DNA from: Paracoccaceae bacterium
Lineage (GTDB): Bacteria; Pseudomonadota; Alphaproteobacteria; Rhodobacterales; Rhodobacteraceae
NCBI GenBank assembly: GCA_016124615.1
Contig: WGNF01000007.1
Coordinates: forward strand, 1 to 64,000
Length of the DNA stretch: 64,000 nucleotides
Direction: 5' to 3'
Under the pieces are notes generated by a model. It was not told where the DNA came from. It ran no database searches and saw only the letters and a program-made list of their open reading frames with translations. The position numbers and the translations under genes were made by a program. Positions 20,064-25,823 of the stretch are shown here, one piece after another; the stretch's first letter is position 1, and every line of letters starts with the position of its first letter.

Positions 20064-20218
20064 CGCGCACCTCCCCAGCAACCGCACCTGCCCTTTGGCA
20101 GATAGGGGCCGCGAAGAGCCGCGCGCAAGGCCCGCGCGCACCCTGCCGCCCCGAACAGGGCTTGCGCCGCGCCCCTGCCCCGCTATAACCCGGTCGATTT
20201 TCGATGGGGGCCGGGACG

Positions 20219-23200
20219 ATGCCGAAGAGAACCGATATCAAGTCGATCATGATCATCGGGGCCGGGCCCATCGTCATCGGTCAGGCCTGCGAGTTCGACT
20301 ACTCTGGCGCGCAGGCCTGCAAGGCGCTGAGGGAAGAGGGTTACCGGGTCATTCTGGTGAACTCCAACCCCGCCACCATCATGACCGACCCCGGCCTTGC
20401 CGACGCGACCTACATCGAGCCGATCACCCCCGAGGTCGTCGCCCGTATCATCGAAAAGGAACGCCCCGACGCGCTGCTGCCGACGATGGGCGGGCAGACC
20501 GGGCTGAACACCAGCCTCGCGCTGGCCGACATGGGCGTGCTTGACCGCTTCAACGTGCAACTGATCGGCGCCAACCGGCAGGCGATCGAGATGGCCGAAG
20601 ACCGCAAGCTGTTCCGCGAGGCGATGGACCGGATCGGGCTGGAAAACCCCAAGGCCACCATCATCGCCGCGCCGAAGCTGCCGAACGGCAAGTATGACCT
20701 CAAGGCCGGGGTGCAAGAGGCGCTGGACGCCATCGAATACGTCGGCCTGCCCGCCATCATCCGCCCCGCCTTTACCCTTGGCGGCACCGGCGGCGGCGTC
20801 GCCTACAACCGCGACGACTTCGAACGCATCGTGCGCTCGGGCCTCGACGCCTCGCCGGTGGCGCAGGTGCTGATCGACGAGTCGCTGCTGGGCTGGAAGG
20901 AATACGAGATGGAGGTGGTGCGCGACCGCGCCGACAACGCCATCATCGTCTGCGCCATCGAAAACGTCGACCCGATGGGCGTGCATACCGGTGACAGCAT
21001 CACCGTTGCCCCGGCCCTGACGCTGACCGACAAGGAATACCAGATCATGCGCAACGGCTCGATCGCCGTGCTGCGCGAGATCGGGGTGGAAACCGGCGGC
21101 TCGAACGTGCAGTGGGCGATCAACCCGGCCGACGGCCGCATGGTGGTGATCGAGATGAACCCGCGCGTGTCGCGCTCTTCGGCGCTGGCGTCGAAGGCGA
21201 CGGGCTTTCCGATTGCGAAAATCGCCGCGAAACTGGCGGTGGGCTACACGCTGGACGAGCTGGACAACGACATCACCAAGGTGACGCCCGCCAGCTTCGA
21301 GCCGACCATCGACTATGTCGTGACCAAGATCCCCCGCTTCGCCTTCGAGAAGTTCCCCGGATCAAAGCCCGACCTGACCACCGCGATGAAATCGGTGGGC
21401 GAGGCGATGGCCATCGGCCGCACCATCCACGAGTCGCTGCAAAAGGCGCTGGCGAGCCTTGAAACCGGGCTGACCGGCTTCGACGAGATCGCCATCCCCG
21501 GCGTCGCAGACGCCAAATCCGAGGTCGCCGCGCCCGAGAAATCGGCGATCATCAAGGCGCTGTCGGCCGCCACCCCCGACCGGCTGCGGGTGATCGCCCA
21601 GGCGATGCGCCACGGCCTGTCCGATGACGAGATCAACGCCGTCACCGCCTTCGACCCCTGGTTCCTCGCCCGCATCCGCGAGATCATCGAGGCCGAAGAA
21701 ATCATCCGCCGCGACGGCCTGCCGCTGGCCGCAGAGGGCCTGCGTCGGCTGAAGATGATGGGCTTCACCGATGCCCGTCTGGCGAAACTGACCGGCCGCG
21801 ACGAGGGTCAGGTGCGCCGCGCCCGCACCCGGCTTGGCGTTACCGCCGTCTTCAAGCGCATCGACACCTGCGGCGCCGAATTCGAAGCCCAGACGCCCTA
21901 CATGTATTCGACCTACGAAAGTCCGGCGATGGGCGATGTCGAATGCGAGGCGCGGCCCTCGGACCGCAAGAAGATCGTGATCCTCGGCGGCGGCCCCAAC
22001 CGGATCGGCCAAGGCATCGAGTTCGATTACTGCTGCTGCCATGCCTGCTACGCGCTGACCGACGCGGGCTATGAAACCATCATGATCAACTGCAACCCGG
22101 AAACGGTCTCGACCGACTACGACACCTCGGACCGGCTGTATTTCGAGCCGCTGACGCTGGAACATGTCCTCGAAATCCTGCGGGTCGAGCAGGACAACGG
22201 CACCCTGCACGGCGTCATCGTGCAGTTCGGCGGCCAGACGCCCTTGAAACTGGCCGATGCGCTTTACGCCGAAGGCATCCCGATCCTCGGGACCACCCCC
22301 GACGCCATCGACCTTGCCGAAGACCGCGAGCGATTCCAGCAGCTTCTGCACAAGCTCGGCCTGAACCAGCCCGTCAACGGCCTCGCCCATTCGCGCGATG
22401 AAGCCTTCGCCGTGGCCGCCCGCGTCGGGTATCCGCTGGTGATCCGCCCCAGCTACGTGCTCGGCGGCCGGGCGATGGAGATCATCCGCGACGATGCCCA
22501 GTTGGAGCGTTACATCCGCGAGGCGGTGCAGGTTTCCGGCAAGAACCCCGTACTGCTCGACAGCTACCTGACCAACGCGATCGAGGTTGATGTCGATGCG
22601 CTGTGCGACGGCACCACCGTCCATGTCGCGGGCATCATGGAGCATATCGAGGAGGCGGGCGTCCACTCCGGCGACTCTGCCTGCTGCCTGCCGCCCCACT
22701 CCCTCTCCGACGAAACCGTGGCCGAATTGAAACGCCAGACCGCGCTGATGGCGAAGGGCCTGAACGTCGTCGGCCTGATGAACGTGCAATTCGCGATCAA
22801 GGACGGCACCATCTACGTGCTGGAGGTGAACCCGCGCGCTTCCCGCACCGTGCCCTTCGTCGCCAAGGCCACCGACTCTGCCATCGCCAGCATCGCCGCC
22901 CGCGTCATGGCGGGCGAGCCCTTGTCGAACTTCCCGATGCGCGCGCCCTACCCGGTCGGCGTCGGCCCCGATACCGCGCTGCCCTTGGCCGACCCGCTGA
23001 CCCTCGCCGACCCGAAAACCCCGTGGTTCTCGGTCAAGGAAGCCGTCATGCCCTTCGCCCGGTTCCCCGGCGTCGATACCCTGCTCGGCCCCGAAATGCG
23101 CTCCACCGGCGAGGTCATGGGCTGGGACCGCACCTTCCCGCTCGCCTTCCTGAAGGCGCAGATGGGCGCCGGCACCCACCTGCCAACCGAGGGCCGCGTC

Positions 23201-23578
23201 TTCGTCTCGATCCAGGACAGCGACAAGACCGAGGCGCTGGCCGAGGCCTGCCGCGATCTGGTCGCGATGGGGTTCGAACTGGTCGCGACGCGCGGCACCG
23301 CCGCCTTCCTGCAAGCCGCCAACGCCCCCTGTTCATTGGTCAACAAGGTCTATGAAGGCCGCCCGAACATCGTCGACCGCCTGAAAGACGGCGACATCGC
23401 GCTCGTCTTCAACACCACCGAGGGCGTGCAGGCGATCAACGACAGCCGCGAAATCCGCGCCGTCGCGCTTTACGACAAGATCCCGTACTTCACCACCGCC
23501 GCCGCCAGCATCGCCTCGGTACAGGCGATGAAGGCCCGGCTGGAAGGGGAGATCGGGGTGCGGACGCTGCAGGGGTGA
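20219..23578 (+). CDS. carB: Carbamoyl-phosphate synthase large subunit
   Basis: A 1119-aa enzyme, the normal length, making carbamoyl phosphate from glutamine-derived ammonia, bicarbonate and two ATP for arginine and pyrimidine synthesis. Both homologous halves are visible: the first starts [20 protein letters not shown] and the second [19 protein letters not shown], each followed by an ATP-grasp domain. The oligomerisation domain lies between them (about 405-550) and the MGS-like regulatory domain is at the C-terminus ([20 protein letters not shown]). ATG 20219 ([11 protein letters not shown]) fits the family start. carA is not in the window. Confidence 0.97.
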
Positions 23579-23662
23579 GGTGCTGCGCGCTTGCCATGCA
23601 TCAGTCATTTGTAGTAGGTTTGACTATGTGCCCAACATGTAGCTTCTTCTCGAAAGAAACAG

Positions 23663-24604
23663 ATGACGGCCGAAATTGCTATTCTTAACAAAAGCGCTGT
23701 CGCATTGGCTACGGACAGCGCAGTGACAATTTCCTCCGGAAACTCACATCAGAAAGTTTTTGATACTGCAGACAAGCTCTTTGAGTTGTCAAAGAAGCAA
23801 CCCATCGGGATTATGATTTACAACGGGATGCAATTCTCCGGTATCCCTATTCAAGACTTGATCAAGGAATTCAGATCAAACTGCAATATGTTTGAAACAA
23901 TTAGCGATGCCTCCACCAGCTTTCTTACCTTCCTGAATGAAATTGGGCGAGCCGCGCCAGAAACCGAGAAGAAGGCAGTTATCTTTAATATCGTTAATCC
24001 ATTTTTGGATCTTATAGATCAAAGAATTGGTGAGGCCTTTCGGAAGGCGGCTCTTCAGAAGCGCGCCGATGAAGGAAGCGAGTCGAAATTCATGCTCGAC
24101 GAGGTTGTCGAGACAGTGGTTTCGGTAATGGAGCGGGTCACCGAGAGATTCCAGATGGGGAATTTCTTCAAGGCGACAAGCACGCCTAGGCTGTTGAAAG
24201 TAGAGAAAGAAGCAATTGTTGAATTTGTAGCCGAACGTTTTCAATATTTACCTGGCGAAGTACAATCAAGAATATCAGCCTGCGCAAGGACTTTGGTGCT
24301 TTCCGACCGACTTTCAAATAGTAAAACTGGCGTCGTCATAGCTGGATTTGGCAATAGAGAGAGATTCCCAACTCTAATTTCAATCGAGCTAGAAGGCGTA
24401 ATTGCTGGAAGACTAAAGTTTGTTCAGACGTCAAAGTGTGCAATAGATCGAAATGGAAACAGGGCATTTGTCAGGCCATTTGCACAAAAGGAAATGGTCG
24501 CGCGCTTTCTCTATGGATTGGACGATGACATTCAGCGCGAAATTGTCGATTTTTTGCAAAGAAACGGTCGGCGGTATATCGAAGGAGATATTCGACAGGG
24601 TTAA
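23663..24604 (+). CDS. Proteasome-like N-terminal-threonine (Ntn-hydrolase) protein, N-terminal part; frameshifted
   Basis: The protein begins M-TAEIAILNKSAVALATDSAV. After Met removal, T1, D17 and a lysine followed by LF (K37, DKLFEL) line up with the T1/(D,E)17/K33-L-F catalytic pattern of proteasome beta subunits, HslV and Anbu; the intervening strand pattern AVALATD..VT also matches. I infer an Ntn-hydrolase fold, possibly an autonomous peptidase. The frame stops at 24604, but coding continues in the +1 frame to 24995 with conserved-looking sequence, so a 1-nt shift is likely, best placed in T6 at 24550-24555. The region is much more AT-rich than its neighbours and sits directly downstream of carB, which indicates transfer. 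No known name. Confidence 0.7.
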   Translation: MTAEIAILNKSAVALATDSAVTISSGNSHQKVFDTADKLFELSKKQPIGIMIYNGMQFSGIPIQDLIKEFRSNCNMFETISDASTSFLTFLNEIGRAAPETEKKAVIFNIVNPFLDLIDQRIGEAFRKAALQKRADEGSESKFMLDEVVETVVSVMERVTERFQMGNFFKATSTPRLLKVEKEAIVEFVAERFQYLPGEVQSRISACARTLVLSDRLSNSKTGVVIAGFGNRERFPTLISIELEGVIAGRLKFVQTSKCAIDRNGNRAFVRPFAQKEMVARFLYGLDDDIQREIVDFLQRNGRRYIEGDIRQG

Positions 24605-24995
24605 TTTTTCAGCGGACGAAGACAGAGATGAACTCATGGGCAAAACGCAGGCTGCCGAGGACGCTTTTTTACAAAGTCTAAAGGAAAAGGCGTTTAGAGT
24701 CATCGAGGAACGTTCAAGACGCGAAATTGAAGACATGATCCAGTTCATGCCGAAGCCGGAGTTGGCAAAGATGGCGGAAGCGCCGATCGATCTTACTTCC
24801 ATGAAACGGAAGGTGACCGTGGGGGTAGAGACCGTTGGAGGCCCAGTCGACGTCGCGGTGATATCAAAATCTGAAGGGTTCGTTTGGGTCAAAAGGAAGC
24901 ACTACTTCCCACCGGACTTGAACAGTGGTTACTTCAATCGGATAAATGTTCAATCGCTTGGGAGGGTGGACAATGCAAAACCGGAATCTCGTTGA
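24453..24995 (+). pseudogene. C-terminal part of the proteasome-like protein in the +1 frame
   Basis: This frame continues the 23663 gene after an apparent single-base insertion. From about 24556 it reads CKETVGGISKEIFDRVNFSA and a helical segment (LMGKTQAAEDAFLQSLKEKA), then MAEAPIDLTSMKRKVTVGVE, TVGGPVDVAVISKSEGFVWV and KRKHYFPPDLNSGYF, which looks like the proper C-terminus of the same protein. The residues encoded before ~24550 in this frame are not meaningful. The gene is either inactivated, read by slippage at T6, or affected by a base-calling error. It overlaps the next small gene by 23 bp. Confidence 0.55.
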
Positions 24996-25155
24996 CGACA
25001 GCATCATAGACGAAGTGATGAACATCGAGGGCGAGCGGGCAAGTAGGCGCCCGCGCGACCCGCAACTTCTTGAAGCAATTCGCAATACTCGCGAGGAAAT
25101 TGCTCGCGCGTTCGGGGACAAGCGTACATTGGTGGCCAGTCTGACCCGCACTTGA
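24973..25155 (+). CDS. Small hypothetical protein (60 aa) paired with the proteasome-like gene
   Basis: Encodes MQNRNLVDDSIIDEVMNIEG followed by a charged helical C-terminus (LLEAIRNTREEIARAFGDKR). No known domain. ATG 24973 is preceded by GGAGGG at good spacing, and the start overlaps the end of the preceding reading frame, so the two are probably translationally coupled. Composition is intermediate. It could be a partner, regulator or substrate of the Ntn-hydrolase-like protein; this is inference from position only. Confidence 0.6.
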   Translation: MQNRNLVDDSIIDEVMNIEGERASRRPRDPQLLEAIRNTREEIARAFGDKRTLVASLTRT

Positions 25156-25204
25156 TTGATCTTGCATCAGCTTCTTCCGTTCACTGAGTCTGATCGCGCC
25201 CCCC

Positions 25205-25639
25205 TCAATAAATCGACCCCCCTCGACCAAAGCTCTTCACGATCTCGATCAGCTTGTCGTCGCCGTCCATCGCGTCCTCCCAGCGCGGCTTCTCGGTGGC
25301 GAAGAGGCCATCCGGCCCGAACAGTTCGTTCTTGTCCGGGCCGTGGATCAGGTGGTTCAAACGCCCGTACATCCAGATTTTCAGCACGTCGTTGATGCGC
25401 CGGTGCGTGCCGCGCCCCATCTGGCGGAAGAACTTCATCACATTGGCGTCGAGGTACAGCGTCACCTTCTCGCGCTTCGTGTCCTTCGAGGTCAGCGCGA
25501 CCTCGTGCCACTCGGCGGGCAGGCCCCAGCCTTTCCACAGCGTGTTGGCAATGTCCCATTCCACCCGCTTCTGGGCGACCTGCATGAAGTAGTAGTGTTC
25601 CAGCCGGCGCGGGCTCATCTTCGGCGGTTCGTGGGGCAT
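25205..25639 (-). CDS. BrnA-like antitoxin-family (ribbon-helix-helix) protein without BrnT
   Basis: A 144-aa protein whose central part REKVTLYLDANVMKFFRQMG and RGTHRRINDVLKIWM matches the BrnA/DUF4415 C-terminal ribbon-helix-helix, the DNA-binding and toxin-neutralising module of type II BrnT-BrnA systems. The N-terminal 60 residues (MSPRRLEHYYFMQVAQKRVE) and a 45-residue C-terminal extension are unlike a compact BrnA. No BrnT toxin gene is adjacent on either side, so it is an orphan, more likely a stand-alone regulator. ATG 25639 has AAGGAG upstream. Array 2 of the 11-bp repeats lies 73 bp upstream. Confidence 0.65.
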   Translation of the reverse strand: MPHEPPKMSPRRLEHYYFMQVAQKRVEWDIANTLWKGWGLPAEWHEVALTSKDTKREKVTLYLDANVMKFFRQMGRGTHRRINDVLKIWMYGRLNHLIHGPDKNELFGPDGLFATEKPRWEDAMDGDDKLIEIVKSFGRGGSIY

Positions 25640-25711
25640 CGCGGTCTCCTTGCTCACACCCTCAGGCTGGCGCGAAAGGGCTAACATCGCGTCAACGCGG
25701 CGCGCGCGCGA

Positions 25712-25751
25712 GCGGTGCGAAATCGGTGTCAAATCGGTGCGAAAACGGTGC
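25712..25751 (-). repeat. Array 2: tandem 11-bp repeats (RCACCGATTTY type)
   Basis: On the plus strand: partial gcggtgc (25712-25718), gaaatcggtgt (25719), caaatcggtgc (25730), gaaaacggtgc (25741). Read on the minus strand these are the same GCACCGATTT-type units, with exact 11-bp period, as at 3577-3620 and 34147-34190. The array lies between the divergent BrnA-like gene (start 25639) and the rhodanese gene (start 25824). Confidence 0.7.
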
Positions 25752-25823
25752 CCCGGTTTCGTCGCCCCTTGTCACATGCACGTTTCAGAATATAGGCTGG
25801 ATCCAGCGAACAGGAGACCCGAC

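Follow-up and report, generated by a model that had tools for sequence, protein, structure and literature searches.

Fuchs, Alva and Lupas described 22 new proteasome-like families in 2021, with few clues to their function (PMC8665760). Their article, which is cited in turn by PMC13022661, describes the Proteasome homologs with Multiple Insertions (PMI) computationally and without a function (PMC8665760). In PMI-4, insertions follow H1/H2 and lie between H3 and H4, and 501 sequences at nr90 come from Proteobacteria, Firmicutes, other phyla and phages; the article reports neither a genomic context nor a co-occurrence that would hint at function (PMC8665760). What is new here is a two-gene module, in which an enzyme of this kind is accompanied by a small partner that is under selection and sometimes fused to it.

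The module lies behind carB in the window, by which we mean the whole stretch of 64,000 nucleotides of Paracoccaceae DNA that was analysed. Its features and their surroundings are as follows.

20204-23578: carB, so named by the earlier reader from sequence alone
about 23580-25220 (no strand assigned): low-GC insert of about 1.6 kb, holding the two-gene module, delimited by GC contrast and by the sister genome G1055
23663-24604 (+ strand): upstream portion (5') of the gene for the proteasome-like Ntn hydrolase, 313 aa in frame 0; phrog_5990 columns 1-299, E 8e-52 (alignment A1)
23666-23668 (+ strand): second codon, encoding Thr1, the predicted N-terminal nucleophile; Thr in 122/123 homologues, Ser in 1/123
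23714-23716 (+ strand): codon of Asp17; conserved in 123/123 homologues
23774-23776 (+ strand): codon of the Lys that corresponds to proteasome Lys33 (by count Lys37), before LF; conserved in 123/123 homologues
24453-24995 (+ strand): ORF with the 3' part of the enzyme gene from about 24560; frame +1; phrog_5990 columns 292-426, E 9e-36
24540-24575 (+ strand): frame-change stretch; both frames match consecutive parts of one family
24960-24966 (+ strand): Shine-Dalgarno-like GGGAGGG for the partner, read directly, inside the 3' end of the enzyme gene
24973-25155 (+ strand): gene of the 60-aa partner, its start lying within the end of the enzyme gene; similar to 9/9 partners tested
25205-25732 (- strand): gene to the right of the insert, presumably BrnA-type antitoxin-like

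A low-GC insert after carB, carried on mobile DNA, had been proposed from the sequence, and both parts of the proposal held. The GC content of the insert is 47.4% as against 67.4% elsewhere, the minimum for any stretch of equal length in the window. In the sister genome G1055, carB is followed by about 200-236 bp and then by the same gene that the window has beyond the insert; the edges of the insert were set where they are because these two genes sit so close together there, and the right edge is placed to within tens of bases. In genome G1057, carB is adjoined by the second gene to the right of the window's insert. Insert DNA was detected in one of seven genomes of the genus, the window's own, one of the other genomes being 70% complete; the family model, too, gave no match in G191. 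The insert holds the enzyme gene and the small partner gene and no other gene, and homologues of the enzyme are found on phages, satellites and plasmids. No integrase or transposase gene was found within the insert, and no target duplication was spotted there by eye. Nor does the insert have room for a gene of an alpha subunit or ATPase, the absence of which nearby had been noted from the sequence. A promoter scan gave three sites against 1.2 in shuffles, a result that carries no weight.

The gene at 25205-25732 is kept in G1055, and of 61 family genomes 20 have relatives of it at E ≤0.001, many of them weak. At 25712-25760, upstream of a gene that we take to be rhodanese-like, lies a repeat of about 40-50 bp (of the GTGCGAAATCGGTG type); repeats of this type are present in many copies across this genome and in some others of its genus.

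The enzyme gene is broken as sequenced. Its two ORFs match consecutive parts of phrog_5990, a 427-position family to which PHROGs v4 assigns no function, and we therefore place a frame change inside one gene of about 440 codons, the halves of which together cover columns 1-426/427 of the family. The final residues of the first ORF fall past the frame change, and the conserved C-terminal strand of the enzyme, ETVGGPVDVAVIS, is encoded in the second. Among non-redundant copies of at least 300 aa, 123/126 reach at least 380 aa in one frame, the exceptions being the window copy, L199 and L359. Six distinct broken copies (window, G330, L199, L359, L063 and L352) have their breaks at differing places, which argues against a programmed frameshift; in view also of the 123 intact copies, we rejected one. 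The breaks suggest that copies are often lost or that assemblies err here. In the window, either a real mutation or an assembly error would account for the break, and the copy may be inactive. The broken copy at G330:C2:386508-387759 (L139), in another alphaproteobacterium, has its break elsewhere than the window's.

Homologues were drawn from genome contigs (20 loci), phages (13 records), plasmids (10), viral contigs (54, 78 and 80 loci, the last two sets overlapping and taken from the best 80 of 137 and the best 80 of 163) and whole genomes. Matches in whole genomes numbered 9/292, 17/385 and 10/398, with the window's own genome and some short relatives counted and the sets partly overlapping; occurrence among genomes is sporadic. 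In all, 282 copies were located, many of them redundant, and 126 non-redundant copies remained at ≥300 aa and 123 at ≥380 aa, mostly of 400-459 aa.

Direct reading bears out the start M-T-A-E-I-A-I-L-N-K from 23663, and by count T1, D17 and K37 before LF fall where the sequence-only reading had put them (alignment A1). The proteasome-type catalytic layout that it saw in these three residues is shared by all 123 homologues, a single serine in place of Thr1 apart. The weak spot is the oxyanion glycine (Gly47 of the proteasome): where a counterpart was sought, at alignment columns 40-62 of the 123 homologues, no glycine is ≥93% conserved. Short relatives of about 275-300 aa (L083 880-1698, L084 841-1686 and G368:C19:26281-27105), two of which begin MTVCV, share the Thr1/Asp/Lys layout without the long helical insertion, and the two that were scanned had no Pfam match. 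In L003 (at 8001; also in L131 at 9325) the conserved start is ATT, and the stretch upstream as far as the nearest stop has no ATG, GTG or TTG; judging from these codons, the L003 homologue probably uses an ATT start.

For the structure, an intact homologue, L009, was modelled instead of the broken window copy, using AlphaFold2 with 20 sequences (pLDDT 81.5, pTM 0.77). A Foldseek search of the PDB with this model gave eight matches at E ≤0.001, all of them 20S proteasome chains. The best alignment in VIA-align was with 5l5b_K (Z 15.7, 3.3 Å, 181 residues), and 4qv8_K gave Z 15.6 over 182 residues; the register sets model residue 2 on chain residue 1, that is, Thr1 on Thr1. Both entries are yeast 20S proteasomes, 5l5b with a human beta5i part and 4qv8 with a beta5 mutant, and chain K is presumably beta5 in each. 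As modelled, the enzyme has a proteasome-beta-like Ntn fold, as had been expected in the sequence-only reading, which tied its proposal to this fold and to the conservation of the three residues; neither outcome that would have refuted it was seen. Helices 63-73 and 80-96 of the model were assigned here as H1 and H2. Insertion 1 consists of helices at 100-213, between H2 and the strand 223-229, and insertion 2 of helices 289-313 and 318-360, between 277-285 and 364-385 (the helix naming is that of this analysis).

By sequence alone, kinship to proteasomes appears faint but in register. Archaeal beta subunits were the three best matches of a first profile against the PDB (E 0.095-0.1) and ranked 2nd, 4th and 5th with a deeper profile (E 0.01), where designed helical proteins scored alike and one of them, aligned to the helical insertion, ranked first. 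Comparison with HslV by hhalign gave E 0.17 and 0.012. In the first profile, the C-terminal strand GGPiDVavis aligned with GGMIDVAVIT of the archaeal beta subunit, and the two thus have the strand GG-IDVavI-dG in common.

Searches of Pfam, NCBIfam and PADLOC gave no convincing match for the enzyme gene, and PADLOC 2.0 matched neither enzyme half nor the partner up to E 10. Comparison with the proteasome model PF00227, suggested earlier as a check, came out negative for two window fragments, three homologues and two short relatives. The same model found two other proteins in the window's own genome, one that size and score liken to HslV and one that they liken to Anbu. HslV and Anbu share with the enzyme an Ntn core without alpha subunits, but they are recognised by PF00227 and measure about 175-250 aa, neither of which is true of the enzyme. 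With the 20S beta subunit (PF00227) it shares the fold over 181 residues and the N-terminal Thr register, yet it is about twice as long, has no propeptide and goes unrecognised by PF00227; its modelled insertions should, moreover, hinder stacked rings. PPH and AAH are also proteasome-like genes borne by phages, but PPH measures about 140 residues, and AAH and other group I proteins are compact and lack insertions, in contrast to an enzyme of about 440 codons (PMC8665760).

PMI-4 and the enzyme have in common the Thr1/Asp17/Lys33 layout, both helical insertions and the lack of an unfoldase, together with a broad distribution that includes Firmicutes and phages, unlike that of PMI-3 (Table 1, PMC8665760). 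Both insertions are present in the model, and the distribution agrees with PMI-4 and not with PMI-3; judged by described architecture and distribution, the enzyme is most likely a member of PMI-4 (the representative of which is HDY66466.1). The small partner gene and one fusion, seen for the window family, set it apart from PMI-4 as described. The view of the protein as uncharacterised therefore stands as far as function goes, whereas its kind had already been described computationally in 2021 (PMC8665760).

The coupled 60-aa gene noticed earlier in the window turned out to be one of many. In a neighbourhood survey of the kind proposed from the window, an ORF of 45-90 aa was present at the enzyme stop in 91/116 homologues versus 138/643 control genes (Fisher p 5e-32), an excess that is significant in each of three GC classes. 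Starts up to +25 of the stop were admitted in this larger set, and seven of the 123 homologues had too little downstream DNA and were left out; the search found no partner in the other 25/116. In a first set, 63/66 non-redundant copies had such an ORF starting -35 to +20 of the stop, compared with 81/362 long ORFs in the same loci. Partners have a median length of 61 aa and a median start 1 base after the enzyme stop. They are too diverged for a single alignment, and scans of Pfam, NCBIfam, PADLOC and PHROGs lent no support to the partner as a member of a known family. In L206, a partner-sized ORF of 49 aa is unannotated.

The partner is under purifying selection, with pN/pS <1 in 23/23 independent pairs (pooled 0.42). 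Its pN/pS is above that of the enzyme in 21/23 pairs (one equal, one lower), and hence it evolves faster than the enzyme. Absence of a partner is clustered on a FastTree tree that has several long branches (13 changes versus 23 in shuffles; 0/500 as low). The window protein belongs to a 33-row clade in which a separate partner is scored as absent only for L126 and L142; in L126, which is genome G040, enzyme and partner are fused in one 506-codon ORF, the tail of which matches the L009 partner (42% over 43 residues, E 4e-8). This fusion is one of the two tree rows nearest the window protein. The window partner scored above shuffles against 9/9 clade relatives (p 0.001-0.018) and is predicted to form two helices, with residues 30-48 confident and bearing a conserved I..T...I..AF pattern. 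Because it is usually co-encoded, evolves fast and can be fused, the partner is best read as an inhibitor, sensor or adaptor that binds the enzyme.

Phage copies of the enzyme gene occupy cargo-like positions. Six of nine Streptococcus records were viewed: in five of them, among which is Javan85 with the gene after the lysin, the gene is last or next-to-last, and in the sixth, the satellite Javan421, it lies in the last third. Directly upstream of it in Streptococcus satellites and one viral contig (L090, L091, L203-L205, L051) are two conserved small genes, one of 121 aa and one of 98 aa that is annotated as a putative transcription regulator. In the four E. coli prophages viewed, the gene has one of two places: in antisense, with the antiterminator Q on one side and a DNA methyltransferase plus a small gene on the other, or directly after a helix-turn-helix repressor. 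In E. coli and Stenotrophomonas phages its neighbours lie on the other strand, and in Providencia and Stenotrophomonas phages lysis genes stand beside it. The repressor (RacR-like, a label of this analysis) precedes the gene on the same strand, at a distance of 145-275 bp, in eight distinct records, two of them from E. coli; the distances were taken from BLAST match ends, and the repressors are 64-100% identical to the query. A place directly after the repressor is the classic place of superinfection-exclusion genes such as rexAB of lambda, and the likeness of these eight records to the rexAB type is one of position. Taking 40 non-redundant viral loci, 28 of the 36 with both neighbours have at least one on the opposite strand, a count made without a control. 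Repressors, integrases and endolysins lead among the families listed for 150 neighbours (25 of 203; counts may overlap).

Counter-examples are a Porphyromonas phage, in which the gene stands among structural genes, and a Pantoea plasmid, in which it is within a block of phage genes. On an Enterococcus plasmid, a recombinase lies about 3 kb from it. Copies in bacterial genomes are mostly among housekeeping genes. The gene's placement behind repressors and at phage and satellite ends suggests that the lysogen gains from it, most plausibly because competing phages are excluded.

Our preferred reading, held tentatively at a little short of an even chance, is that the pair encodes a stand-alone, partner-controlled protease carried as cargo by temperate phages, and that its most likely benefit is to exclude competing phages or elements. 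Once Met1 is removed, Thr1 would become the nucleophile, which Lys and Asp17 would activate for attack on amide bonds; these steps are taken over from established Ntn chemistry. The two large helical insertions would replace the contacts with a ring and an ATPase, and the small, mostly helical partner would bind the enzyme and either hold it inactive or aim it at a target. The pair would travel as accessory cargo on phages and their satellites, on plasmids and in lone chromosomal cassettes, and its genes would probably be expressed in the lysogen. The balance between partner and enzyme would be upset by a rival phage or element, whereupon the enzyme would cut a single specific protein of virus or host. 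What the computation establishes is the fold, the conserved catalytic residues, a coupled partner under selection, one fusion, the cargo-like positions and the insertion; that the enzyme is an active hydrolase, that the partner binds and controls it, that the pair is expressed and that it protects the host are steps that we infer here.

As to assembly, Fuchs et al. argue that insertions should hinder proteasome-like double rings (PMC8665760), and a monomer or small assembly is likely for that reason; as to the self-compartmentalising enzyme suggested from the sequence, the large helical insertions of the single-chain model speak against a proteasome-like double ring. The antiviral benefit taken by itself is a hypothesis that we place anywhere from doubtful to not quite even. 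That the module should stand for an undescribed anti-phage or inter-element immune class, a monomeric threonine protease checked by a 60-residue inhibitor or sensor and released by infection, without unfoldase or ring and in rexAB-like and other cargo positions, is the more doubtful end of that range and on the whole unlikely.

A main rival to the antiviral reading is that the enzyme controls lysogeny by cutting a regulator, be it the prophage's own repressor or another, while the small protein serves as adaptor or timer, much as the ImmA protease acts on the ImmR repressor. The eight records in which the gene is directly downstream of a RacR-like repressor on the same strand would fit this, as would the rank of repressor families as the commonest named neighbours among those listed; yet the same place is also classic for superinfection-exclusion genes, and the pair is found too without any adjoining phage gene, as after carB, and in satellites, in lysis regions and among structural genes. 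We consider control of lysogeny improbable. It is comparably improbable, if by a hair less so, that the enzyme is an Ntn enzyme other than a protease, either a connectase-like protein ligase or a small-molecule amidase. Other Ntn hydrolases do act on non-protein amides, and the enzyme family has no invariant oxyanion glycine at columns 40-62, but the best structural neighbours are 20S proteasome subunits. Connectase itself has the same core and ligates, yet it lacks helices H1 and H2 (PMC8665760), whereas the L009 model has helices 63-73 and 80-96.

Should the small gene be only an assembly helper, or a propeptide in trans, the enzyme might degrade damaged protein generally, like an uncapped proteasome. 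Proteasome propeptides assist assembly (PMC8665760), the enzyme begins directly at Met-Thr without one, and the partner has a fitting size and helicity. Against this reading, which seems to us quite improbable, the sporadic occurrence of the enzyme and the faster divergence of the partner are unlike housekeeping, and two PF00227 proteins are already present in the window's own genome. A degradation tag like Pup, which stands beside the actinobacterial proteasome and has the C-terminal motif GG[EQ], is also brought to mind by a protein of 60 residues, helical in part, whose gene is coupled to a proteasome-like one, as is an enzyme acting downstream of ubiquitin-like conjugation. Four Rhizobiales plasmids (L096, L199, L200 and L201) do have the enzyme near multiubiquitin, ThiF and DUF6527-like genes, and three of them also near a ClpP gene. 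By BLAST, however, these are the only loci among those compared with multiubiquitin/ThiF relatives, three of them near-identical in order and the Mesorhizobium locus ordered otherwise, and a Pup-type GG[EQ] C-terminus is present in 0/91 partners. A tag therefore strikes us as very improbable.

The preferred reading, that of a partner-controlled protease carried as phage cargo, takes up the defence role suggested from the sequence, which fits the positions on phages and satellites but finds no echo in the surroundings of bacterial copies. We scanned 184 neighbours, 100-1200 aa long and no more than 7.5 kb away, of 17 whole-genome copies, at least two of the copies on plasmids, together with 184 of 223 control proteins from the same genomes (PADLOC E up to 1e-8). 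Known defence families were not in excess, with 8 + 35 PADLOC families around the 17 copies versus 54 + 7 in the controls, where matches were, among the families listed, partly to housekeeping helicases; a single protein may match many families. In Pfam, the case sets gave, among the matches listed, mostly housekeeping genes and two of GmrSD type. A defence island around the bacterial copies was accordingly rejected, and the defence role stays conjectural. A literature search for a proteasome-like or Ntn phage-defence gene found none by title or start of the abstract among the matches listed, bioRxiv being outside its scope.

The partner gene and the repeated phage cargo positions give a functional lead for what is probably the largest of the 22 families and, if the role is antiviral, this would be a new use of the proteasome fold. 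Copies in E. coli prophages make the function of the enzyme a question for the bench; at least 22 of 5,426 E. coli genomes have a homologue, a lower bound from partial DNA matches. In one E. coli copy (L207 10786-12189), the annotation begins 33 codons upstream of the conserved Met-Thr, a start that would hide the nucleophile.
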